From NCBI GenBank assembly GCA_021286765.1, contig JAJTBS010000003.1:62001-126000 (forward strand): a DNA stretch of 64,000 bases, read 5' to 3'. The notes beneath the pieces were generated by a model, which was given only the letters and a program-made list of their open reading frames with translations, was not told the DNA's origin and made no database searches. Position numbers and translations under genes: made by a program. Shown in pieces: positions 3,658-26,220 of the stretch (positions are counted from its first letter, which is position 1; every line of letters starts with the position of its first letter). This stretch comes from Holophagaceae bacterium (GTDB lineage Bacteria > Acidobacteriota > Holophagae > Holophagales > Holophagaceae).

Positions 3658-5019
3658 TCATTCCAGCAGCTGGAGCAGGGTTTCGGCGGTTTCGGCGAGG
3701 CGGCTCGCCGGCGTGTTCAGGGGCGGCAGCAGGTACAGGCAGTCACCGATGGGCCGCACCAGCAGGCCGTGGTCCAGGGCCCGGCGGTGCAGGCGCCAGC
3801 CGAAGCGGGATTCGGGCTCGTGGGGCCGGCCAGTGGAGGGATCCACCAGGCGGCAGGCTCCGATGGTGCCCAGCACCCGCGCCTGGCGCACGGCCCGGTG
3901 GGCGGCCAGAGCCGTGAAGGCGTCCACCATGGCGGTGTGGAGGGCCGCGGCCTGGGCCAGCACGGGTTCCTCGTCGAAGAGGGCGAGGCTGGCGCAGGCC
4001 ACGGCGCAGGCGGTGGGATTGGCGGTGTAGCTGTGGCCGTGGAGGAAGGCGCGGCCCGAGGCGGGCTCGCCCCAGAACTGCTGGTAGATGGCCTCGGTGG
4101 CCCAGGTCATGGAAAGCGGCAGCGTGCCGCCTGTGAGGCCTTTGGAGAGGCAGAGGAGATCCGGCGCCACCCCGGCCTGTTCGCAAGCCAGGAAAGTGCC
4201 CGTGCGGCCGAAGCCCGTGGCGACTTCGTCGAGGATGAGGTAGACGCCCTGGGCATCACACTGGGCGCGCAGCTCTTGCAGCAGCTCGGGCGGCCACATG
4301 CGCATGCCCCCTGCGCACTGGATGAGGGGCTCTGCGATGAAGGCGGCGAACTGTCCGCCGTGGACCTTGAAGAAGGCGCGCATGTCCTCGCGCGCGGCCT
4401 CCAGGCGCGCGGGCCAGCCCGTGAGGTCGGGATGGATCTCCCGTCGGGGGTCCTCTGGCACCTCCAGCCGGTCGCAGGCCAGCAGCAGGGGGCTGAAGAG
4501 GCCCGTCATGAAGTTCTCCAGCTCGCCCACGCCCACCGCGCCCAGGGTGTCACCGTGGTAGCCGCCGCGCAGGGCGCCGAAGCGGACGCGGCCCCGCTCG
4601 CCCCGCTGCAGCTGGGCCTGGAAGGCCATCTTCAGGGCCACCTCCACCGCGGTGCTGCCGTCATCCGAGAAGAAGGCGCGGGTGAGGCTGGGGGGCAGCT
4701 TGGGGCGGAACCGGGCCACCAGCTCCAGGGCGGGTTCGTGGGTGAAGCCTGCGAACATCGCATGGTCGAGCCGCGCGGCCTGCCGCTCCAGCGCACTCAC
4801 CAGCCGGGGATGGCCGTGCCCGTGCAGGCAGGTCCACCAGCTGGAGATGCCGTCCAGCACCCGCTCCCCGTTGGCCAGCAGCAGGTCGCAGCCCTCGCCG
4901 CCCACCACGGGAACCGGTGGATCGGCTTCATGGACCTTCATCTGGGTGAAGGGGTGCCAGAGGTGGGCGCGGTCCAGGGCCAGGCGGTCGGTCCAGTCGG
5001 GGGGCAGGGGACTTGGCAT
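3658..5019 (-). CDS. bioA: adenosylmethionine-8-amino-7-oxononanoate aminotransferase
   Basis: 453 aa, normal for BioA. It transfers the amino group of S-adenosylmethionine to 8-amino-7-oxononanoate, giving 7,8-diaminononanoate, the penultimate intermediates of biotin synthesis. Class III PLP aminotransferase features are clear: HLWHPFTQM and GISSWWTCLHGHGHP near the N terminus (typical of BioA), GGYHGDT, LILDEVATGFGRTG with the PLP Asp at ~264, and the PLP lysine in LSKGLTGGTLPLS at ~293. It starts 4 bases after the bioD stop, so bioD-bioA form an operon. bioF lies 4 kb away on the same strand; bioB is not in this window. Confidence 0.97.
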   Translation of the reverse strand: MPSPLPPDWTDRLALDRAHLWHPFTQMKVHEADPPVPVVGGEGCDLLLANGERVLDGISSWWTCLHGHGHPRLVSALERQAARLDHAMFAGFTHEPALELVARFRPKLPPSLTRAFFSDDGSTAVEVALKMAFQAQLQRGERGRVRFGALRGGYHGDTLGAVGVGELENFMTGLFSPLLLACDRLEVPEDPRREIHPDLTGWPARLEAAREDMRAFFKVHGGQFAAFIAEPLIQCAGGMRMWPPELLQELRAQCDAQGVYLILDEVATGFGRTGTFLACEQAGVAPDLLCLSKGLTGGTLPLSMTWATEAIYQQFWGEPASGRAFLHGHSYTANPTACAVACASLALFDEEPVLAQAAALHTAMVDAFTALAAHRAVRQARVLGTIGACRLVDPSTGRPHEPESRFGWRLHRRALDHGLLVRPIGDCLYLLPPLNTPASRLAETAETLLQLLE

Positions 5020-5023
5020 GCCC

Positions 5024-5632
5024 TCAGTCTAGGACCAGCACCGGCAGGGGCAGGAACCCCCGCAGCAGCTTGGCGTTGGCTTCGGCCACCTCGGGCGCCG
5101 TGCCGTCGGCCCCTGGGTTGAGCAGCACGGCCTCGATGCGCCAGCCCCTCAGCATGAGGGCTTCGGCCGAGAGCAGGGTGTGATTGAGGGTGCCGAGACC
5201 GCCCAGGGCCACCAGCACGCAGGGAACCTTCTGTTCCGTGGCCCAGGCCAGGAAGTGGGTGGACGGTGCCAGCGGCACCATGAGGCCGCCCACGCCCTCC
5301 AGCAGCACGCGGCCATGGAAGGGCCGCTGGCACCACCGGGTCGCGGCCTCGAGGTCGAGGGTGCGGCCTTCCAACTGGGCCGCGGCCAGGGGCGCCAGGG
5401 GGGCCTGCAGCAGGACGTGGCTTTCCGAGATGATCCCGGGCCCGGCCACGGCGGAGGCATCGGCCTCCGGGTGGTCGGGTCGGTCGACGCCGGTCTGGAA
5501 GGGCTTGCGGTAAGCCACGGGGCCGAGTTCCGCCCAGGCCCGGGCCAGCCGCGCGCAGACATGGGTCTTCCCCACCCCTGTGCCGGTGCCGAGCACCCAC
5601 AGGGGATGGGGAAGGATGTCCGGGCTCAGCAT
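5024..5632 (-). CDS. bioD: dethiobiotin synthetase
   Basis: 202 aa. It closes the ureido ring of dethiobiotin from 7,8-diaminononanoate, CO2 and ATP. The P-loop GTGTGVGKT at ~15-23 is the BioD-type Walker A; AYRKPFQTG and LLEGVGGLMVPL are the diagnostic substrate-binding and Mg/ATP stretches. It is slightly short of the usual ~220-230 aa but has the complete core. It is directly upstream of bioA (4-base gap) and 26 bases downstream of the TPR gene on the same strand, so these three are probably co-transcribed. Confidence 0.95.
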   Translation of the reverse strand: MLSPDILPHPLWVLGTGTGVGKTHVCARLARAWAELGPVAYRKPFQTGVDRPDHPEADASAVAGPGIISESHVLLQAPLAPLAAAQLEGRTLDLEAATRWCQRPFHGRVLLEGVGGLMVPLAPSTHFLAWATEQKVPCVLVALGGLGTLNHTLLSAEALMLRGWRIEAVLLNPGADGTAPEVAEANAKLLRGFLPLPVLVLD

Positions 5633-5658
5633 GGCGGGGCCAGCGTTTCGCCGTCCCG

Positions 5659-6279
5659 CTACTTCTTCAGCTGGCTGAGCATCTGGCGGGCCTGGGCGGC
5701 CTGCTCGCTGCCCGGGGCCAGGGCGATGACCTTGTTCCAGGCCTTGGCGGCTTCATCCGGCTTGTGGAGGTCGCTGGAGTACACCACGCCCATGTTGAAG
5801 AGGCTCTGGACGTGGTTCGGGTCCAGCTTGTTCGCCTTCTGGAAGTTCGCCAGTGCCTTGTCGAACTGGCCCAGGTCACGGTACATCACGCCTTGATCGG
5901 TGAGGACGTTCGGCTCGTCGGGCTTGATGGCAAGCCCCTTGCCGTAGGCATCCACGGCCTTCTGGTGCTGGTGGGTATCGAAGTACTCGTTGCCGAGGGA
6001 GAACCAGGCGGCGAAGTTCTTGGGCTCGGCCAGGACCGTGGCCTCGAGGCGCGTGATCCGGGCCTGGGCCTCCGCGCTGGGAAGGGCGGGACCGGCGGGC
6101 ATGGCCCCCGGCGCGGCGCCGGGCATGGCGCCGCCCAGCGAGGGTGCGGGCATGATGGGGCCGGTCGGGGCCGCCACGACCGGGCGGGCCTCATGCGATT
6201 CTCCGCCGAAGACGAAGTAGCCGGCGAGGAACCCGGCGGCCAGTCCCCCAGCCAGGGCGAACATGATGTTGCGGTTCAA
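5659..6279 (-). CDS. membrane-anchored TPR protein
   Basis: 206 aa from a TTG start at 6279, chosen because AGGAGG sits 6 bases upstream and the next residues (LNRNIMFALAGGLAAGFLAGYFVF) form an N-terminal membrane anchor. A Pro/Ala/Gly-rich linker follows (~30-70), then about three tetratricopeptide repeats (~75-190), for example NFAAWFSLGNEYFD, PNVLTDQGVMYRDLG and HVQSLFNMGVVYS. TPRs mediate protein contacts; no enzymatic domain is present. It resembles the cytochrome c biogenesis/CcmI-like or generic TPR anchors, but no specific role can be assigned. It precedes bioD and may be read with it. Confidence 0.8.
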   Translation of the reverse strand: MNRNIMFALAGGLAAGFLAGYFVFGGESHEARPVVAAPTGPIMPAPSLGGAMPGAAPGAMPAGPALPSAEAQARITRLEATVLAEPKNFAAWFSLGNEYFDTHQHQKAVDAYGKGLAIKPDEPNVLTDQGVMYRDLGQFDKALANFQKANKLDPNHVQSLFNMGVVYSSDLHKPDEAAKAWNKVIALAPGSEQAAQARQMLSQLKK

Positions 6280-16552: not shown

Positions 16553-16675
16553 CCTTGTCCGCCCACTCCTTCGCCGCCTTCTTCGCCCTGTGGGCTCAGA
16601 CCTCTCCCTCGGAGGCGCGGAGCATGCAGGCCATCACGCCCCTTCATCCTTGTCCGCCCACTCCTTCGCCGCCTT
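16553..16675. repeat. 28-bp direct repeat: duplicated 3' end of the uracil-DNA glycosylase gene
   Basis: The same 28 bases occur at 16553-16580 and 16648-16675, 95 bases apart. In the second copy they encode KAAKEWADK near the end of the glycosylase (minus strand). In the first, non-coding copy, the same frame reads KAAKEWADKAQEG and a stop. This looks like a remnant of the gene's tail left by partial duplication or by replacement of the C terminus. The ~140 bases 16494-16633 hold no other gene. Confidence 0.85.
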
Positions 16676-17443
16676 GAGGTCCTCCCACACGGCGCGGCGC
16701 ACGTCCTGCGTGTACTGGCGCAGCACGTAGGCCGGATGGAAGGTGGGCATGACGGGGATCTCGCGATTCCCCACCACCACCCGCTTCCACTGGCCGCGCA
16801 CCCGCGTGATGCCCTCGCTGACGCCCACCAGCTCGCGCAGTGGCGTGGCGCCCAGGGTGACGATCACGGCGGGCCGGATCAGCTCGATCTGGCGGCGCAG
16901 GTAGCCAAGGCAGGCGCGGGCCTCCTCGGGGGTCGGGGTGCGGTTGTCGGGGGGGCGGCACTTCACCACGTTGGCGATGTAGGTCTGGTCGCGCCTCAGC
17001 CCGATGGCGCCGATCATCTTGTCCAGCAGCTCTCCAGCCTTGCCCACGAAGGGTCGGCCGTGAAGGTCCTCGTCCCGGCCGGGTCCCTCGCCCACGAACA
17101 TGAGCGGGGCCTGGGCATCCCCTTCGCCGAAGACGAACTTCAGGCGGCCCGGTCCCAATGGGCAGGCCAGGCAGCCCTGGATGGCAAGCTGCAGCTCCTG
17201 GAGGCTGGTGGCGCCGGCCACGGCCTCGGAGGTTGGACAGCCCACTGGATCGGTGGGCGGCGTGTAGGCCGCCACAGCCCGAGGGGAGGCGACTGGGGCT
17301 GGACGGGCGGCCGAGGGGCGAGCTGGGGGCGGTTCCATGGCGGCGGCCGGGGCCGCGGGAACGGCCGTGGCGGGCTCGCGCACCAAGCCCATCACCCCCA
17401 ACTCCTCGAGGGTGTCGCGCCAGGCTTGAAGCGGATGATCCAT
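16634..17443 (-). CDS. uracil-DNA glycosylase, family 4 type (Fe-S)
   Basis: 269 aa from the ATG at 17443. It removes uracil from DNA in base-excision repair. An Ala/Pro-rich linker (~25-75) follows a short N-terminal helix; similar linkers occur in many family-4 proteins. The catalytic domain shows CLACPLG (first cluster cysteines), FVGEGPGRDEDLHGRPFVGKAGELL, VVKCRPPDNRTPTPEEARACLGYL with further cluster Cys, and MPTFHPAYVLR near the end. GEGPG with a downstream Asp/Glu is the family-4 active-site strand. It is divergent from the ECF sigma gene. The C-terminal coding tail is repeated just beyond the stop (see the direct repeat). Confidence 0.93.
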   Translation of the reverse strand: MDHPLQAWRDTLEELGVMGLVREPATAVPAAPAAAMEPPPARPSAARPAPVASPRAVAAYTPPTDPVGCPTSEAVAGATSLQELQLAIQGCLACPLGPGRLKFVFGEGDAQAPLMFVGEGPGRDEDLHGRPFVGKAGELLDKMIGAIGLRRDQTYIANVVKCRPPDNRTPTPEEARACLGYLRRQIELIRPAVIVTLGATPLRELVGVSEGITRVRGQWKRVVVGNREIPVMPTFHPAYVLRQYTQDVRRAVWEDLKAAKEWADKDEGA

Positions 17444-17461
17444 ACCCTTCCAGGCTATCCC

Positions 17462-17490
17462 GGAACTTCTCCTCTGCATCGGGCATCCTA
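17462..17490 (+). promoter_or_regulatory. candidate ECF-type promoter upstream of its own sigma gene
   Basis: GGAACTT at 17462-17468 matches the typical -35 element of ECF sigma factors (GGAAC core). With a 16-base spacer the -10 falls on ATCCTA at 17485-17490, giving a start near 17496 and a very short leader before the GGAG ribosome site and the ATG at 17509. This fits autoregulation, common for ECF operons, but the -10 motif of this sigma is unknown. Confidence 0.45.
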
Positions 17491-17508
17491 AGGCGTCGGA
17501 GCTCATGC

Positions 17509-18024
17509 ATGTCGCAGTCCCCCATGGAAACCCCGTTCGGCACGCAGGAGGCCTTTCATGCCGCCTTCGCCGAGCTCTACCCAAGGCTCGTGAGCTATTC
17601 ACGGCGCTACGGGGCCACTTTCCCGGAAGACATCGCCCAGGAGGCGTTCGTCATCCTCATGCAGCGTGAGGAGCGGGTGGAACATCCCACCGCCTTCCTG
17701 TACGGCACCGTGCGAACCCTGTCCCTCACCGAGCGACGCCCCATGAAGAACCAGAACCTCAGCCTGGAAGCCGTCACCGAGCCCGGCCTCGGCGGGGGGG
17801 CCGACGACATGGTGCTCAACCAGGAGGTGCGGGAGCGCATGCGATCGCTTTCGCCAACCTTCCGCGAGGCGCTCTGGCTCTTCGTGGTGGAAGGGCTCTC
17901 CATCCGGGAGATCGCGGACATCCTCGCCATTCCCGAGGCCACCGTGAAGACCCGCATCCACCGGGCCAAGGCCCAGCTCAAAGATCAGCTCAATCCTTCA
18001 GGAGGCCTGCATGCCCTGGTCTGA
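17509..18024 (+). CDS. ECF-type RNA polymerase sigma factor
   Basis: 171 aa; ATG at 17509 with GGAG 7 bases upstream. Region 2 is at ~20-60 (LYPRLVSYSRRYGATFPEDIAQEAF) and binds core polymerase and the -10. Region 4 is at ~110-165 (LSPTFREALWLFVVEGLSIREIADIL...ATVKTRIHRAKAQLKDQL), a helix-turn-helix for the -35. Regions 1 and 3 are absent, so it is group 4. The next gene starts inside its last 14 bases and encodes a single-TM protein that may be its anti-sigma factor. It lies divergent from the uracil-DNA glycosylase gene. Confidence 0.93.
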   Translation: MSQSPMETPFGTQEAFHAAFAELYPRLVSYSRRYGATFPEDIAQEAFVILMQREERVEHPTAFLYGTVRTLSLTERRPMKNQNLSLEAVTEPGLGGGADDMVLNQEVRERMRSLSPTFREALWLFVVEGLSIREIADILAIPEATVKTRIHRAKAQLKDQLNPSGGLHALV

Positions 18025-18529
18025 TCCCGCCCGGCGCTTCGAACCCGCCGAGGATGTCCAGCTCCGAGCGGAGCTCCGCGACCTGCTGGGCCTGGGGCCC
18101 GTGGCGGCTCTCCGGCCCTCGGAACCGACGGCGGAACTCAATGCCCTGGCTGATGATCTGCGGCGGGAGGCCCAGCGCCGCAGCCGCACGGAGCGCAAGC
18201 GGCCCACCTGGGGCCTCCTGGCCGCCGCGGCCTTGCCCCTGTTGGCGGCCTTGGCCGGGCTGGGAACCTGGGGCTTCCAGCAGAAGCACCGGGCCGATGA
18301 CCTTGCCGCCCAGACCCAGCGGCAGGACCAGGAGCTGACGCGGCTCGCCGCGCTTCATGCTTCCGAGGTGGCCAAGGAACGCCAGGCCAAGGAACAAATT
18401 CAGCAGGAATTGCAGTTGGCTTCACGGAAGGGAAGCCGCAAGGCGGAACCCTACCTGGTCATTCCCGTGGAAAAGCCCCTCAAGACCATGGGTGACGACT
18501 ATCAGAGGGTGAAGCAGAAGCCCCAGTAG
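18011..18529 (+). CDS. single-pass membrane protein, possible anti-sigma factor
   Basis: 172 aa; ATG at 18011 with AGGAGG 5 bases upstream, overlapping the sigma gene by 14 bases. The cytoplasmic part (~1-65) is charged and helical. One TM helix lies at ~68-88 (WGLLAAAALPLLAALAGLGTWG), then a coiled coil (~92-140) rich in Gln/Glu/Lys, and a basic C-terminal tail. The topology and position are those of an anti-sigma factor, but the zinc-binding HxxxCxxC motif of classical ZAS anti-sigmas is absent and I see no known family. Role inferred from context only. Confidence 0.8.
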   Translation: MPWSDPARRFEPAEDVQLRAELRDLLGLGPVAALRPSEPTAELNALADDLRREAQRRSRTERKRPTWGLLAAAALPLLAALAGLGTWGFQQKHRADDLAAQTQRQDQELTRLAALHASEVAKERQAKEQIQQELQLASRKGSRKAEPYLVIPVEKPLKTMGDDYQRVKQKPQ

Positions 18530-18981: not shown

Positions 18982-20892
18982 TCATCCCGCCTGGCTGTGG
19001 TTCGCCGGGGTCCAGCCGCGCTCGTTCAGCAGCTTCACGCCCTGGATGCGGGTGAGGCGGAAGGCCATCTCCTCCTGGTGGAGGTGGCAGAACGCCAGCA
19101 GGTGGTCTTCCTGGATGGTGCGGGGTGACACGCGCCGCAGCTGCGTCCGGTGGGCGGCCGGGGGCAGGTAGGTGAGCTCCACCATGAGGGTGTGGCCCGC
19201 GGCGTATTCGAGGATGCGCTGCACCTCCTCGGCCAGCTGGTCCTCTCCGCCCAGATGCAGCATCGGGATGCGCCGCTGCACCTCCTGGTAGAGGGCGGGG
19301 TCCTCATCGTGGAGTTTCTGGAGGGCCGTGCGCACCATCTGCTGGACCGGCTCCAGGTGGTGGTTCATGCCCTTCTCATCCACGAAGGCCAGGGCCGCCA
19401 GGGCCCAGAGGTAGAGCTTCTCGTCCGAATCCACGCTGAGGGCCAGGAAGCGGCCGGGCTTGGGCATGAAGCCCGCCTGCTTGAGCAGCGCGTGGGCATT
19501 GCCGTCCCCGCGCACCTCCAGCACCGTCTCCGACAGGGAGCCCAGCTTCAGGGGGGCCAGCTCGGGGCGCAGCTTCAGTTCCTCGGCCAGGTGGGCCGTC
19601 CGAGCCCGCACCAGGCGCACGCCCTGGTGGACCTCCACCTCGCCCACGCGCCGCGATAGGTCCTCCAGCAACTGAAGCAGAGGCTGGGGCAGGGTCTGGG
19701 TGGTGGCGCCCAGGCGGAGGCCCAGCTCCTCCAGGGGCACACCCGCATCCAGGGCGCGCACCAGGGTGGCGTGGCTCACGCGGAAGCTGCCCATGGCATC
19801 CAGGGATTCCACATCGGCCAGCTGGGCCAGCTGCAGCAACCGGTGGGGGTTCTGCAGCAGGGGCGTCAGCAGCTCCAGGGTGGGCTGCATGATCATGGGC
19901 TGGTCCAGCTCCAGCTGCTGCCAGTGGGCCGCCGTGCCCTTCAAATCCCGGAGCAGGTACTCGTGGGCCAGGGCCTCGCCATGCTCGGTGAGCCGGAGGT
20001 GCGCGAAGCCCTCATCGGCCTGGATGATGCCCATGCGGCCCAGGAACGGCAGGAACACCGTGCGGGTGCGCTCCTCGTCCAGGGGATGCAGGGTCTTGAG
20101 GAAGGCCAGGAAGGGCTGCACCGCCAGGGACTGGCCGCGGCGCTCCAGCAGATGCTGCATGAGGAAGTGGCGGTCCTCCGCCGGGGGCATGCCCCAGGCC
20201 TTGAGGTCGTGCTCCAGCAGGCTCGCGAAGGCCCGCTCGGCCACCCAGCGGGGCGGGTGGCTGATCACGGCGGGCAGCAGCGTCTCCACGCGGCCGTCGC
20301 GGTTCCAGAGCAGGCCCAGGCGATGCAGCAGGGTGAAGAGCAGGGTCGCGTCCTGCTCCTCCTGGAGCATGGCGTTGCGCTGCATGAGCTGGCCCAGCTC
20401 CTTCTTGGCGGGCAGGCCGCCTTTGAGCACGCGCAGCCCGGCGACGCAGCGCAGCAGCACGCTGGTGAGGGCCAGGGAGAAGCGGAAGGGTTCGGCCGCC
20501 CGGAGCTTCACCTCGGCGGGGGTCTGGAAGCTCAGCGCGCCCTCGTCGAAATCCTCCAGGGCATCGGCCACCCGTTCCGCCACGGCCCAGCCGGCTCCAG
20601 TGGGCAGGATCAGGCCCAGGTCCCGCAGGACCTCGACCACCTCGGGTGCCGGCGCGGTCCCGTCGCAGACGAAGTGCTTCAGTGCGACCAGGGAATGGCT
20701 GTCCAGGTCGGCGAGGGTGTCCGAGAGCCGCTTGTGGTCCTCCAGGTGGAAGACCATGGTCTTGAGCAGGCGCATGCGCCCCTCGCCGCAGTCTTCCCAG
20801 CGGATGGGGATGGGCAGACGCCGCCGCTCGCAGATGGTCCGAAGCTGCTCATCCGAGCAGTTCGAGAGAAGCTGGAAGTGCGTCTGCGGCAT
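18982..20892 (-). CDS. helicase-associated domain protein with WYL-like C terminus (XPB partner)
   Basis: 636 aa, mostly helical, no signal peptide. The long N-terminal and middle parts resemble the bacterial helicase-associated (XPB/Ssl2-linked) proteins: LTSVLLRCVAGLRVLKGGLPAKKELGQ, then a winged-helix-like block ending in FLGRMGIIQADEGFAHLRLTEHG. The last ~75 residues look like a WYL-type ligand-binding SH3 barrel (VELTYLPPAAHRTQLRRVSP, LLAFCHLHQEEMAFRLTRIQG). In actinobacteria such a gene (Rv0862c) sits next to the XPB helicase gene (Rv0861c). Here the XPB gene is 3.6 kb away, divergent, with a protease gene between. Biochemical role is unknown; DNA repair is inferred. Confidence 0.82.
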   Translation of the reverse strand: MPQTHFQLLSNCSDEQLRTICERRRLPIPIRWEDCGEGRMRLLKTMVFHLEDHKRLSDTLADLDSHSLVALKHFVCDGTAPAPEVVEVLRDLGLILPTGAGWAVAERVADALEDFDEGALSFQTPAEVKLRAAEPFRFSLALTSVLLRCVAGLRVLKGGLPAKKELGQLMQRNAMLQEEQDATLLFTLLHRLGLLWNRDGRVETLLPAVISHPPRWVAERAFASLLEHDLKAWGMPPAEDRHFLMQHLLERRGQSLAVQPFLAFLKTLHPLDEERTRTVFLPFLGRMGIIQADEGFAHLRLTEHGEALAHEYLLRDLKGTAAHWQQLELDQPMIMQPTLELLTPLLQNPHRLLQLAQLADVESLDAMGSFRVSHATLVRALDAGVPLEELGLRLGATTQTLPQPLLQLLEDLSRRVGEVEVHQGVRLVRARTAHLAEELKLRPELAPLKLGSLSETVLEVRGDGNAHALLKQAGFMPKPGRFLALSVDSDEKLYLWALAALAFVDEKGMNHHLEPVQQMVRTALQKLHDEDPALYQEVQRRIPMLHLGGEDQLAEEVQRILEYAAGHTLMVELTYLPPAAHRTQLRRVSPRTIQEDHLLAFCHLHQEEMAFRLTRIQGVKLLNERGWTPANHSQAG

Positions 20893-20950
20893 GAGGTCCC
20901 GGGTACAGAGGATCTTTCAGTATCCCACATTAGTGGAATCCGCTCACGCG

Positions 20951-20977
20951 CAAAAAGCGCCCGGCATGCCGGGCGCT
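20951..20977 (-). terminator. intrinsic terminator of the metalloprotease lipoprotein gene
   Basis: On the minus strand AGCGCCCGGC, a 2-base gap and the exact complement are followed by TTTTTG. It begins 21 bases after the protease stop (20999). The helicase-associated gene starts 59 bases further on, so the two minus-strand genes are separate transcripts. Confidence 0.85.
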
Positions 20978-20998
20978 CGGGTGGAGAAAACCATCAGG

Positions 20999-23900
20999 CT
21001 AGTTGAGGGTTTCCAGGCGGTGGGTGCGGCTGGCCACGCCGTCGCTGAGCACGAGGTCAAAGCGCTTGCCGGTGGCCGTGATGGTCTGGCGGCCGCCGGA
21101 GAGGATGGCGATGACCTCCCCGGTATCCGCGTCCCGCACCATGGCGGCCGGGTGGACCGTGGCGTCCCAGGTGAGCTGCAGCCGGTCGGCGGACAGGCGC
21201 AGGGCCTCGGGGGCGGCGGCCACGATCCGGGCTTCCGCGCTCACGGAGCGCAGGCTGGTCAGGGTCTGGCCGGCCTTGGTGACCTGGAGCCCGGCCAGGG
21301 CGTCCAGCACGGCGGCTTCCAGGGGCAGGGCCATGACGAAGTGGCGGATGTGCTCCTTCGGACCGCAGCCGACTTCCATCAGCTCCAGGGCCGTGGAGAA
21401 GAGCGTGGCGCCCTTGGCATCGTGGAGGTCCAGGGTGAATTCACCCTTGGCGGGCAGCTCGGAGGGCAGGGCCTTGGTGCGGAAGGAGGGCAGCATCTGG
21501 ACGGTGCCGTCCTCATGGACGACGCCACGGACGATGAGGCACTCCCGGGCCGTGGCCTGGGCCTTGGGCAGGGGGGCGTCCTCCGCGCCCACCATGAGGA
21601 AGCCGCCCGTGCCGCCCCGGAAGTCGAGGATCTTCTTGTAGACGTAGTCGCTCACCCAGTTGGGGGTGCAGTAGGCCATGATGTCGTGGTCCACGGTGGG
21701 GGAGTGCAGGGTGTTCAGCACCGTGTCGTAGCCCCAGACGCCGATGAAGGCGTTGGCGTAGGGGTAGGCCGCATCCGGATTGCCGGCGCCGCCGCAGGGG
21801 CTGTGGTTCCGGCCCATGTTGTGGCCGGTCTCGTGGGCGAAGACCTCGGGGAAGAGGCCGCCGTCGTTGTAGCCGGAGGTCTTGTCCCAGCCGATGGCGG
21901 TGCGGTACTTGAAGGAAGCGCTCGAGACATTCGGGACCCAGCCCAGGCCCGCCACGCCCGAGGGGTAGCTTACGTTGAGGGCGCCGTAGTAGTAGCGGTC
22001 GCTGGCGCCGTCGGCCAGGTGCTTGGCCGTGAGGTCGTTCAGGAGCGTATCCCAGCCTGTGCCATCCGAGGCGAGGGTGTTGACGGAGCCGGTGAAGGTG
22101 GTGCCGACAGCGACATCCACGCTGGCCACGGGATACATCTTGGCCAGTCGGGCGGCCCAGGCATCCTTGTTGGCCGCGGAGATGTTGCCGTTTCCGGTGG
22201 AGAGCACCACGGGGAAGATGGTGGTCCTGAAGGTGGGAACCGTGGTGCTGGTGAAGGTGGCCGTCGCCTGGTTGTTGCCTTCGTCGGCTTCCGCCACGGC
22301 ATTGGTGGGATCCACCTCGGCCAGGATGCTGTAGCCGCTGCCCGTGGGCGTGGTCAGGTCCGTGCCGGGCACCGTCAGGTTCCAGCTGGCGGTCAGGCTG
22401 GATTCATTCAAGGTCTGGGGAACGCTGGCGCCGGGGGCAGTGACGGTCTTGGGATAGCCGGCCACGTCCACGCCGTTGTTCTTCAGCGTGATCCGGACCG
22501 AAGGCGTGGCCGTGTTGGCCTGGTTGGCCAGCACGAAGACCCGGATCAGGCCGTTCTTCCCGGCCACGATGGGCACGGTGTTGGCCAGGGTCTGGGTGCT
22601 CTGGGTGAGCTGCAGCTTGTCGACATGCAGATCCAGGGTGGCGGTGGCGGAATTGACGGTGAAGCTGCGGCTCTGGGTGCCGCCGGGCGTGGTGACCACC
22701 AGGTTGCCGGAGGTGGCGCCCGCGGGGACGACGAAGGTGAGTCGGGTGGTGCTCTGGGTGGCGATGGTGATGGGGGCGCCATTCAGCGTGATGGTGGTGC
22801 CGGTGTAGCCGAGGTAGGTGCCGTCGATCACCACGGTAGCGCCCACGGGGGCCTGGGTCGGGTTGACCGAGGTGATGGTGGGGGCGCCGTAGGCCACGGT
22901 GAAGTTGGTGGCCGAGGTGCCGGTGCCCTGGGCGTTGGCGATGCTGATGGGGGCGGCCCCATTGGTTGCGCCGGCGGGGATCAGGGTGGAGAGGCTCGTG
23001 CCGTCGGTGAGGGTGTAGGCGCAGTTGGCGCCGCCAATGGTGACGCTGGTGAGGCCGAAGAAGTTGCGGCCCGAGATGGTGACGGTATCCACGCCGGCCA
23101 CGCCAGAGGTGGGCGTGAAGCTGGTGATGACCGGCTTGAGGTCGGCGGCGTTCGGCACGGCGATGGTGGCCGTCACATCGTCCAGCAGGAAGCTGGTGGC
23201 GTTCTGAGCGTCTTCCTGGCTCTTGAAGGAGAGGCGCACGACCTGGCCCTTGTAGGGCAGGAGGCTCACGGTGTAGGCGGTGTAGTCCGCCGCATTCAGG
23301 TTCGACTTGGTGAGCAGGGTTCCAAGCACCGTGTTGGTGGTGCTGAGGGCCTGGACCGTGAAGGTATCCGTGGCGACGGCGCCAGGCTCGGCGGTGAGGA
23401 TTTTCACATAGAAGGTGACATCGGCCACGGTGGCGGTCGCGGGAACCCAGAAGTCCTGGGTGATCTGGTCGGAGTTCACGGAGCCATAGCCGCCCACCCA
23501 GGCGTAGTGTGTTCCGGAGTGGGGCACCATATTGGCGCCACTGGCGGTGGAGATGATGTCGGTACTGCCCTGCCAGATGATTGGGTTCGGGGCGACCGCT
23601 TCGAAGCCCGTGTTCATCATGACCTGGGCCTGGATCGAGGCATTCACCGTGTAGGCCGTGCTGGTGGCCACGCCACCGCCGCTGTTCACGGTGATGGTGC
23701 CGGCGGTCAGGCCCGCCGGGGCCGTGGCGCGGATCTGGGTGTCGCTGTCCACGGTGAAGGTGGTGGCATTCACACCATTGAACTGGACGGCGGTGGTGCC
23801 CACGAAGTGCGTGCCCGTGAGGGTGACGACGGTGCCGATGGAGAGGGTGGACGGTGTGTAGCTGGTGATGGCCGGGGTCTGGGCGGCGTCCACGGTGAAG

Positions 23901-24223
23901 GTGGGCGAGCTGGCCAGGCCGTTGAGGGTGGTCACCTGGATGGCGCCGGTGGTGGCATCGCCGGGCACCACGGCATTGATCTGGGTGGCGCTCGCCACGG
24001 TGTAGGAGAAGGCTGCGTGGCCACCGAAGGAGACAGCACTGACGTTGGTGAAGTTGGTGCCGGTGAGGGTGACGGAGGTCCCCGGGCTGGCGTGGGTGGG
24101 GCTCACGCTGCTGACCGATGGCGTGGCGGGAGGGGGAGGCGGAGTGGAGCCACCCCCGCCTCCGCAACCCAGGAAGGCGATCAAGGCAACAACAGAGAAC
24201 ACTTTGGTCAGCGGCGAGGCCAT
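20999..24223 (-). CDS. large lipoprotein with IPT/TIG repeats and a metzincin-type metalloprotease domain
   Basis: 1074 aa; ATG at 24223 with GGAG 6 bases upstream. A lipobox (LIAFLGC) is followed by GGGGGS and a Pro tract. About four IPT/TIG immunoglobulin-like repeats (~33-113, 116-192, 390-470, 475-560; each with the SPTxxxxGTxVTLTGTNF-type start) surround a jelly-roll-like segment (~195-385). A CARDB-like domain (~565-700) precedes the protease: HETGHNMGRNH at ~797-807 is the zinc motif HExxHxxGxxH and DIMAYC holds the Met-turn. A beta-rich tail ends the protein. It is probably exported and lipid-anchored, degrading extracellular protein or binding matrix. Substrate unknown. Confidence 0.9.
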   Translation of the reverse strand: MASPLTKVFSVVALIAFLGCGGGGGSTPPPPPATPSVSSVSPTHASPGTSVTLTGTNFTNVSAVSFGGHAAFSYTVASATQINAVVPGDATTGAIQVTTLNGLASSPTFTVDAAQTPAITSYTPSTLSIGTVVTLTGTHFVGTTAVQFNGVNATTFTVDSDTQIRATAPAGLTAGTITVNSGGGVATSTAYTVNASIQAQVMMNTGFEAVAPNPIIWQGSTDIISTASGANMVPHSGTHYAWVGGYGSVNSDQITQDFWVPATATVADVTFYVKILTAEPGAVATDTFTVQALSTTNTVLGTLLTKSNLNAADYTAYTVSLLPYKGQVVRLSFKSQEDAQNATSFLLDDVTATIAVPNAADLKPVITSFTPTSGVAGVDTVTISGRNFFGLTSVTIGGANCAYTLTDGTSLSTLIPAGATNGAAPISIANAQGTGTSATNFTVAYGAPTITSVNPTQAPVGATVVIDGTYLGYTGTTITLNGAPITIATQSTTRLTFVVPAGATSGNLVVTTPGGTQSRSFTVNSATATLDLHVDKLQLTQSTQTLANTVPIVAGKNGLIRVFVLANQANTATPSVRITLKNNGVDVAGYPKTVTAPGASVPQTLNESSLTASWNLTVPGTDLTTPTGSGYSILAEVDPTNAVAEADEGNNQATATFTSTTVPTFRTTIFPVVLSTGNGNISAANKDAWAARLAKMYPVASVDVAVGTTFTGSVNTLASDGTGWDTLLNDLTAKHLADGASDRYYYGALNVSYPSGVAGLGWVPNVSSASFKYRTAIGWDKTSGYNDGGLFPEVFAHETGHNMGRNHSPCGGAGNPDAAYPYANAFIGVWGYDTVLNTLHSPTVDHDIMAYCTPNWVSDYVYKKILDFRGGTGGFLMVGAEDAPLPKAQATARECLIVRGVVHEDGTVQMLPSFRTKALPSELPAKGEFTLDLHDAKGATLFSTALELMEVGCGPKEHIRHFVMALPLEAAVLDALAGLQVTKAGQTLTSLRSVSAEARIVAAAPEALRLSADRLQLTWDATVHPAAMVRDADTGEVIAILSGGRQTITATGKRFDLVLSDGVASRTHRLETLN

Positions 24224-24239
24224 GTCGGCTCCATGCGTG

Positions 24240-24281
24240 ATCCCTTGAGGAGAGGTTGGAATGGGACGGGTCTCAAGGGAT
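24240..24281 (-). promoter_or_regulatory. inverted repeat in the leader of the metalloprotease gene
   Basis: ATCCCTTGA (24240-24248) and TCAAGGGAT (24273-24281) are exact reverse complements 24 bases apart, just upstream of the ribosome-binding site of the minus-strand lipoprotein gene. They could form a 9-bp stem in the mRNA leader or act as an operator. The promoter-like GGATTATAG lies just beyond (24288-24296). Confidence 0.45.
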
Positions 24282-24287
24282 GGAAGA

Positions 24288-24296
24288 CTATAATCC
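24288..24296. promoter_or_regulatory. TATAAT-type box shared with the other Cys-Gly5 lipoprotein gene
   Basis: The plus strand reads CTATAATCC (a perfect TATAAT at 24289-24294) and the minus strand GGATTATAG. The minus-strand gene starts 65 bases away. Nearly the same nine bases (CAATAATCC) lie 61 bases before the start of the FN3-like lipoprotein gene at 46134-46142. No good -35 box is visible on either strand, so its role as a -10 element is only suggested. Confidence 0.35.
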
Positions 24297-24420
24297 CCTT
24301 CCTCGATCCAGATGCCTGACCTTTTCTTAACCGACCTGGAGGGTTCCATTAAGTCAGGCAGGCAGGGCCTCCGGACCCGTCCGGAAGCCCGCGCCGGATC
24401 CATGGTCTGACCACCTTTCG

Positions 24421-24450
24421 TTGACCCGCCAGGGCCCGGCCATCTACGCT
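24421..24450 (+). promoter_or_regulatory. candidate promoter of the XPB helicase gene
   Basis: TTGACC (24421-24426), an 18-base spacer and TACGCT (24445-24450) resemble a sigma-70 promoter. The start point would be ~24457, 18 bases before the GTG at 24475. This favours the GTG over an in-frame TTG at 24421, which lies inside the -35 box. The remaining intergenic bases back to 24224 hold no gene. Confidence 0.4.
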
Positions 24451-24474
24451 CAAAGGTTTGGGTCTCCTGCCACC

Positions 24475-26220
24475 GTGATCGCCCTCCGCCCCGACAATCC
24501 CCTGATCGTCCAGAGCGATCGCACGCTGCTGCTCGAGGTGGCGCACCCCGCCTTCGAACAGGTGCGGGATGAGCTGGCGCGCTTCGCAGAGCTGGTGAAG
24601 AGCCCCGAGCACATCCACACCTACCGCATCACGCCGCTCAGCCTCTGGAACGCCTCGGCCTCCGGCGTGCACTGCACGGACATGATCGAGACCCTCAACG
24701 CCTGGTCGAAGTACCCGGTGCCGCAGAACCTGCTGCAGGAGATCGAGGACCACGGTACCCGCTACGGCAAGCTGCGCCTGGTGGCCAAGGGCGACCGGCT
24801 CGCCCTGGAGATGGACGACCGCGGTCTCTTCTGGGAACTGGAGAACCAGAAGTCGCTGCAGGGCCTGCTGGCGGAACCCTACCCGGATGAGAAGGGCATC
24901 TTCCTCAACACGGGGATGCGCGGCGAGGTGAAGCTGCAGCTCATCCGCCTGGGCCACCCCGTGCAGGACATGGCCGGCTACAAGCCCGGCGATCCGCTTC
25001 CCTTCGAGCTGTCGCCCACCACCAAGCAGAACGGCAAGCCCTTCGGCCTGCGTCACTACCAGCAGGCGGCGGTGGATGTGTTCCACGCGGGCGGCGGACC
25101 CGACGGCGGCGCGGGCGTGCTGGTGCTGCCCTGCGGCGCGGGCAAGACCGTCATCGGCATCGGCTGCATGGGCAGCCTGCAGACCCACACCCTGGTGCTC
25201 ACCACCAACGGCACCGCCGTGAAGCAGTGGAAGCAGGAGCTGCTGGACAAGACCACCCTGACGGAAGACCAGGTGGGGCTCTACACGGGCGACACCAAGG
25301 AGATCAAGCCCGTCACCATCGCCACGTACCAGATCCTCACCTACCGTCGCAGCAAGACCGGCCCCTTCGAACACTTCAAGCTCTTCGAGGCCGCCAACTG
25401 GGGCCTGGTGATCTACGACGAGGTGCACATGCTGCCGGCGCCGGTCTTCCGGGCCGTGGCCGAGCTGCAGGCCAAGCGCCGCCTGGGTCTGACGGCCACG
25501 CTGGTCCGCGAGGACGGCAAAGAGGAGGACGTCTTCAGCCTCATCGGGCCCAAGCGGGTGGACGTGCCATGGAAGATGCTGGAGAAGGACGGCTTCATCG
25601 CCACGGCCCACTGCCTGGAGATCCGCGTCCCCCTGCCCACGGACGAGCGCATGGAATACGCCGTGGCCGACCAGCGGCAGCGATTCCGCATCGCCTCCGA
25701 GAACAGCCTGAAGATGGTGGTGATGGACGAACTGCTGGCGGGACACCCCACCGACAACATCCTCATCATCGGCCAGTACCTCGAGCAGCTCCGCATCATC
25801 GGCGAGCGGCTCAATGCCCCGGTGCTCACGGGCCAGACGCCGGAGAAGGAGCGCGAATCGCTCTTCCGGCAGTTCCGCGAGGGCCAGCTGCGGGTGCTCA
25901 TCGTCAGCAAGGTGGCCAACTTCGCCATCGACCTGCCGGATGCCTCCGTGGCCATCCAGGTGAGCGGCACCTTCGGCTCACGCCAGGAGGAGGCCCAGCG
26001 CCTGGGCCGCATCCTGCGCCCCAAGGGCGAGCGCAACGTGAGCTACTTCTACTCGCTCATCAGCAGCGAGACCACCGAACAGGAGTTCGCCCGCAACCGC
26101 CAGCTCTTCCTCACGGAGCAGGGCTACCGCTACCTCATCGAGAGCCGCCGCTTCGACGAGCACCGCCAGCTCAGCGAGCCCACGGTGTGGAAGCAGCTGC
26201 TGGAGGAAACCACGCGCTAG
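24475..26220 (+). CDS. XPB/ERCC3-type DNA repair helicase (SF2)
   Basis: 581 aa from the GTG at 24475, which begins with the family's own start (RPDNPLIVQSDRTLLLEV). The N-terminal DNA-damage-recognition-like region (PEHIHTYRITPLSLWNA) precedes the SF2 motor: Walker A LPCGAGKT (~218), motif II DEVH (~314), motif III LTATLVREDG, then GTFGSRQEEAQRLGRILRPKG as motif VI. The match to mycobacterial XPB (Rv0861c) is extended and collinear. It is an ATP-dependent 3'-5' helicase in nucleotide-excision-type repair. The gene ends in a CTAG shared with the convergent pgpA stop. Its usual helicase-associated partner is 3.6 kb upstream on the other strand. Confidence 0.95.
   Translation: MIALRPDNPLIVQSDRTLLLEVAHPAFEQVRDELARFAELVKSPEHIHTYRITPLSLWNASASGVHCTDMIETLNAWSKYPVPQNLLQEIEDHGTRYGKLRLVAKGDRLALEMDDRGLFWELENQKSLQGLLAEPYPDEKGIFLNTGMRGEVKLQLIRLGHPVQDMAGYKPGDPLPFELSPTTKQNGKPFGLRHYQQAAVDVFHAGGGPDGGAGVLVLPCGAGKTVIGIGCMGSLQTHTLVLTTNGTAVKQWKQELLDKTTLTEDQVGLYTGDTKEIKPVTIATYQILTYRRSKTGPFEHFKLFEAANWGLVIYDEVHMLPAPVFRAVAELQAKRRLGLTATLVREDGKEEDVFSLIGPKRVDVPWKMLEKDGFIATAHCLEIRVPLPTDERMEYAVADQRQRFRIASENSLKMVVMDELLAGHPTDNILIIGQYLEQLRIIGERLNAPVLTGQTPEKERESLFRQFREGQLRVLIVSKVANFAIDLPDASVAIQVSGTFGSRQEEAQRLGRILRPKGERNVSYFYSLISSETTEQEFARNRQLFLTEQGYRYLIESRRFDEHRQLSEPTVWKQLLEETTR

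Follow-up and report, generated by a model that had tools for sequence, protein, structure and literature searches.

A bacterial counterpart to TFIIH p52? A WYL-fused, p52/Tfb2-like protein encoded near XPB in Holophagaceae

Which protein works together with XPB in bacteria? To our knowledge, neither a partner nor a clear role has been established so far for bacterial XPB, and the question is raised anew by a 64,000-nucleotide stretch of DNA from a Holophagaceae bacterium (referred to here as the window), which is part of contig C8 in a 3.15-Mb genome whose genus counts more than 30 sampled species and has Geothrix/Holophagaceae as its named relatives. Here, a plus-strand gene for the DNA repair helicase XPB lies near a minus-strand gene (18982-20892) whose product, a "helicase-associated" neighbour of XPB, will be called HLP. 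Human TFIIH includes a subunit, p52, that holds and controls XPB, and the helicase is recruited through a dimer of homologous domains, namely the N-terminal domain (NTD) of XPB and the clutch of p52. We propose, with a probability of about 0.76, that p52 (Tfb2) has a bacterial homologue in HLP, which together with bacterial XPB makes up a module of two subunits. The two genes and the candidate docking site are located as follows.

18982-20892, minus strand: HLP, a p52/Tfb2-like, WYL-fused candidate partner of XPB, 636 aa (Pfam PF13625 and WYL; PDB profile search; AlphaFold2 and Foldseek)
24475-26220, plus strand: DNA repair helicase XPB, GTG start, 581 aa, in an open reading frame (ORF) opening at TTG 24421 (NF045503; start by comparison)
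24502-24870, plus strand: XPB NTD, at residues 28-150 in the numbering of the 599-aa ORF, where HLP is predicted to dock (PF13625, E 8.2e-37)

The initial annotation had taken the plus-strand gene for XPB and the minus-strand product for a helicase-associated protein, and both assignments held. The former is an NF045503 equivalog with 853 bits (cut-off 610) and also carries the PF13625 NTD; translation more likely begins at GTG 24475 than at TTG 24421, because 581 aa is the length called in most relatives. The latter matches PF13625 (Helicase_C_3) over residues 333-451 with an E-value of 1.6e-13 (51.2 bits, cut-off 34.2). In XPB this domain is the NTD, and HLP is thus a second carrier of the same domain, the two being the only PF13625 proteins found in the source genome. 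NCBI annotation likewise places a "helicase-associated domain-containing protein" near "DNA repair helicase XPB" in Deinococcus, Paenibacillus and Actinomyces, and the initial annotation compared the pair with mycobacterial XPB (Rv0861c) and its neighbour Rv0862c.

The likeness of HLP to p52 appears at the level of both profile and fold. When a profile of 52 HLPs was compared with all 177,635 PDB sequences, human p52 ranked first (E 2.3e-6), followed by the XPB NTD and then by Tfb2 (6trs_A, E 3.5e-4), and the alignment to human p52 placed HLP residues 386-492 on p52 residues 339-453, past the clutch and into the C-terminal module. A second, Bacillota-centred profile returned the XPB NTD at the top (8.3e-8) and p52/Tfb2 in second place (3.4e-6), the alignment with Tfb2 6trs_A (214-424/91-328, E 3.4e-6) beginning upstream of the clutch. 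The Pfam family Tfb2 (PF03849) matches 7 of 26 HLPs, weakly (best E 3.1e-7), and the window HLP has no match to it.

In the AlphaFold2 (AF2) model of the window HLP (mean predicted local distance difference test, pLDDT, 81.3; predicted template modelling score, pTM, 0.58), three winged-helix-like units are followed by a clutch-like domain of five strands and four helices, an alpha/beta module and, past a linker modelled with low confidence, a WYL barrel, all encoded on the minus strand:

20584-20736, minus strand: winged-helix-like unit 1, residues 53-103 (H-H-H-E-E in the AF2 model, pLDDT about 80-92)
20281-20484, minus strand: winged-helix-like unit 2, residues 137-204 (AF2 model secondary structure)
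19990-20181, minus strand: winged-helix-like unit 3, residues 238-301 (AF2 secondary structure, pLDDT about 88-96)
19603-19896, minus strand: clutch-like/XPB-NTD-like domain, residues 333-430 (PF13625 at residues 333-451; p52 clutch alignment)
19459-19596, minus strand: small alpha/beta module 3' of the clutch, residues 433-478, in the place of the p8-binding module of p52 (AF2 model; p52 alignment reaching p52 residue 453)
19024-19233, minus strand: WYL-like barrel, residues 554-623, FRLTRI kept, with R612 and R615 (Pfam/PADLOC WYL; Foldseek; conservation)

A Foldseek search of this model against 350,542 PDB chains gave p52/Tfb2 at ranks 1-14 without interruption, with alignments of 331-540 columns, mostly more than 500, that cover the whole chain. 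An HLP devoid of WYL, from a Bacillota XPB operon, was modelled with higher confidence (pLDDT 89, pTM 0.78), and its ranks 1-22 were again all p52/Tfb2 (best E 1.1e-12), crystals of the p52 N-terminal half being among the lower-ranked matches. The C-terminal alpha/beta module is seen in both models, and the family profile matches Tfb5 weakly (E about 0.5). A viral structure library returned no significant match.

The initial annotation had proposed co-occurrence of HLP and XPB across Acidobacteriota as a check, and the two do co-occur. All of the 61 XPB-bearing genomes in a sample of 396, belonging to 12 families, also encode HLP; among 299 Bacillota, it accompanies XPB in 21 of 23 cases. A set of 35 XPB-bearing genomes from many phyla was picked mostly because HLP had not been seen adjoining XPB, and 33 of them encode a second PF13625 protein, often unlinked; the two misses are a 1-Mb, probably partial genome and a Brevibacillus whose relatives barely reach the threshold. 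These figures are given as counts and not as P values, since the genomes are not independent. Archaeal control genomes matched the XPB model below its cut-off and gave no PF13625 match, a pattern consistent with XPB NTD and HLP going together.

Some departures from a simple one-to-one pair, and other unusual XPB loci, were observed. In one Acidobacteriota genus (G094, L205:2089-3948 and 4002-5846; also G239 and G247), two HLP-like genes stand in tandem and XPB was undetected, while in Anaerolineae (L161:4911-9557, L180:8079-12634) two tandem HLP genes lie 3' of XPB, the first of each pair containing a CxC...CxH stretch that is SWIM-like by eye and has no Pfam SWIM match. Contigs labelled Thorarchaeota (L137, L152) carry a bacterial-type XPB, its NTD confirmed in L137, for which contamination or transfer are possible explanations. 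In Candidatus Hydrogenedentota (L120:3337-6513, L124:9665-12808, L122, L126, L130), a gene for an AddB-like PD-(D/E)XK nuclease directly follows XPB on its 3' side in several loci, with a spacing of +2/+3 nt in three of them, possibly a helicase-nuclease pair reminiscent of archaeal XPB-Bax1.

Several results weigh against HLP being a p52 homologue dedicated to XPB. An HLP-like gene is present in 9 of about 335 Acidobacteriota without XPB, and two Bacillota genomes with XPB have no detectable HLP. HLPs listed singly score 16-22 bits on PF03849, whose curated cut-off is 34.5, and we therefore speak of a p52-like homologue and not of a member of the curated Pfam family. Global TM-scores against p52 are only 0.2-0.3, with a root-mean-square deviation near 20 Å, probably due to a differing relative placement of the domains; the argument for homology draws on E-value, probability and colinearity. 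Finally, a sequence search with the N-terminal part of HLP alone did not find p52, the N-terminal half leading instead to MarR-type winged helices. This last result and the low TM-scores would suit a different explanation, according to which the domain that HLP shares with XPB is no more than a module binding DNA or protein on its own, and the remaining likeness to p52 stems from convergent stacking of winged helices. However, p52 stands above every other winged-helix protein of the PDB with both HLP models, the alignment spans the whole chain in order, and the profile matches reach beyond PF13625, so that we regard convergence as quite unlikely.

If HLP is a p52 homologue, the simplest reading would be that it docks on XPB as p52 does. 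Its XPB-NTD-like domain would pair face to face with the XPB NTD, in the manner of the p52 clutch in TFIIH, and this pairing would hold XPB in a complex and tune its ATPase/translocase, while the winged-helix array may serve as a scaffold or as a DNA-contact arm. The C-terminal WYL domain, where it has been added, may couple XPB activity to single-stranded DNA (ssDNA) arising in repair.

What, then, does the WYL end contribute? The window HLP matches WYL (PF13280, residues 568-620) with 19.7 bits (E 8.8e-4), slightly below the cut-off of 21.8, and the PADLOC WYL model with an E-value of 1.7e-5; together with the barrel in the AF2 model, these matches agree with the initial annotation, which had recognized a WYL-like end and taken it as a hint that the repair pair senses a nucleic-acid or nucleotide ligand. 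The HLP of Nonomuraea has a stronger WYL match (34.2 bits), and the domain is present in 24 of the 52 HLPs and so is not constant in the family. Although the W-Y-L motif itself is degenerate (HLL), an FRLxRI stretch with two arginines is nearly invariant in Holophagaceae HLPs. In PafBC, ssDNA binding requires two conserved arginines of the WYL domain that are spaced as in FRLxRI (PMC11804915), and by analogy R612 and R615 of HLP would correspond to R211 and R214 of PafB (PMC11804915). That the WYL end acts as a sensor or as an ssDNA-holding element is plausible but rather less likely than not, the domain being no constant part of the family. The likeness to p52/Tfb2, which the initial annotation had missed, accounts for the XPB-HLP pairing much better.

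A WYL end behind winged helices could also belong to a transcription regulator of the XPB locus rather than to a subunit of an XPB complex. The WYL proteins BrxR, CapW, DriD and PafBC are indeed among the Foldseek matches of the window HLP, and the divergent arrangement of the two genes in sister genera, 116-289 bp apart, would suit autoregulation. In the same Foldseek ranking, however, p52 stands far above these regulators, and many XPB-paired HLPs (that of locus L157 and others) have no WYL domain. Nor is an XPB-NTD-like domain known from WYL regulators as a class, and altogether we consider such a role unlikely.

The p52-like reading of HLP leaves the protease gene to be explained, since the initial annotation had correctly noted that an exported lipoprotein protease gene with its own terminator separates HLP from XPB, and had offered two alternatives, an insertion or a loose pairing in this lineage.

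20999-24223, minus strand: gene for an exported metzincin lipoprotein with TIG repeats and CARDB, belonging to a variable insertion of TIG genes (Pfam; lipobox LIAFLGC; presence/absence in the genus)
20952-20976, minus strand: intrinsic terminator between the protease gene and HLP (GCGCCCGGCATGCCGGGCGCTTTTT, direct reading)

According to Pfam, the product of this middle gene combines TIG repeats with CARDB and a metzincin domain (M66/reprolysin), and its lipoprotein start at ATG 24223 defines the extent of the gene. The terminator reads GCGCCCGGC-AT-GCCGGGCGC-TTTTT on the minus strand (20976-20952); it was seen by direct reading of the sequence and not listed by a pattern scanner. No island of foreign GC content showed up in the composition profile. 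A plus-strand ORF of 1539 aa (19700-24319), antisense to HLP and the protease gene, is not chosen by the coding model and is regarded as a high-GC artefact.

Within the genus, HLP and XPB are divergent and about 2.6-8 kb apart in every assembled genome that has both on one contig, and the gap holds one to three exported TIG-domain genes in nearly all loci examined. Two of these intervening genes are absent from the window genome and two relatives, the protease gene is absent in several species, and identity to the window proteins is mostly 55-72% for the protease and mostly 84-97% for the flanking proteins. Sister genera (g16, g20, named metagenome-assembled genomes) keep the pair divergent with nothing but the short gap given above, and in another family of the same class as well as in many phyla the arrangement is tandem, XPB first and then HLP, the two genes overlapping by 4 nt in 12 genomes; in some genera the two are unlinked. 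The XPB tree places the Geothrix/g17 insertion within a single clade with support of 97/96, and another, possibly independent, insertion in the small-genome genus g19. Because TIG genes separate the pair in the genus while it is adjacent in sister genera and tandem elsewhere, the protease block is, as judged from gene order, a lineage-specific insertion into the HLP/XPB pair, unrelated to the module. Both alternatives of the initial annotation therefore apply: Geothrix and its near relatives have inserted genes, and bacteria as a whole show loose linkage of the pair despite almost complete co-occurrence.

The presence of exported TIG genes between the pair in nearly all loci of the genus might instead suggest that the protease is functionally tied to the repair genes, as cargo or as a defence cassette with XPB and HLP on either side. 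Against this, the TIG content is variable, the protease diverges much faster than its flanks, several species lack it, its gene ends in a separate terminator, and the pair adjoins directly in sister genera; XPB and HLP match no defence family except generic helicase/WYL, and no framing of the same protease by them was seen outside Holophagaceae. We have rejected this idea, as the TIG genes are variable and absent between the pair in sister genera, and consider it very improbable.

Other genes are found near the pair. A family-4 uracil-DNA glycosylase (minus strand), an extracytoplasmic function (ECF) sigma factor (plus strand) and a 172-aa protein are encoded upstream of HLP (window 16634-18529), a block found again in most Geothrix loci. 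On an Actinomyces oris plasmid (L259:2592-7674), a small hypothetical gene separates the divergent genes for HLP and XPB, and a uracil-DNA glycosylase gene is nearby.

On a broader scale, we see roughly even odds that many bacterial phyla hold a minimal TFIIH-like XPB-p52 module, that the XPB-recruiting core of TFIIH predates eukaryotes or entered them, and that WYL in some lineages turns the p52 subunit into an ssDNA sensor gating XPB. A p52 counterpart would provide bacterial XPB with a partner, a site for docking and a control mechanism open to testing, would bear on the origin of TFIIH, and would offer in XPB-HLP a two-protein system for studying the control of XPB by p52.

How does HLP compare with systems already described? 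The "helicase-associated" proteins of NCBI are the HLP family itself, with PF13625 outside a helicase and near XPB; their annotation does not include the p52 likeness, and gene order and WYL content vary among them. Archaeal XPB-Bax1 is similar in that XPB is bound by a dedicated partner; Bax1, however, is a nuclease, whereas no nuclease family appears among the Pfam matches of the window HLP or the families matched across the 52 HLPs, on which ground HLP was rejected as a Bax1-type nuclease partner, and the archaeal controls are without PF13625. With the WYL sensors PafBC, DriD, CapW and BrxR, HLP shares the C-terminal barrel and, in Holophagaceae, an FRLxRI stretch with arginines three apart like R211/R214 of PafB (PMC11804915), but the barrel sits on a p52-like body and not on a DNA-binding regulator, and the W-Y-L motif is degenerate. 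As for p52 itself, it had not been found in bacteria according to a study on bacterial XPB from 2012, and searches of an open-access library gave no later report of a bacterial counterpart. HLP differs from p52/Tfb2 (GTF2H4; PF03849) in being bacterial, in a structure-aligned identity of only about 12-15%, in the WYL domain that Holophagaceae, Sumerlaeota and the actinobacterium Nonomuraea have in addition, and in that none of the remaining TFIIH scaffold subunits turned up, though none was searched for. What the two have in common is a winged-helix array, a clutch homologous to the XPB NTD and a small alpha/beta module, all in the same order, and in both cases the partner, known for p52 and proposed for HLP, is XPB.

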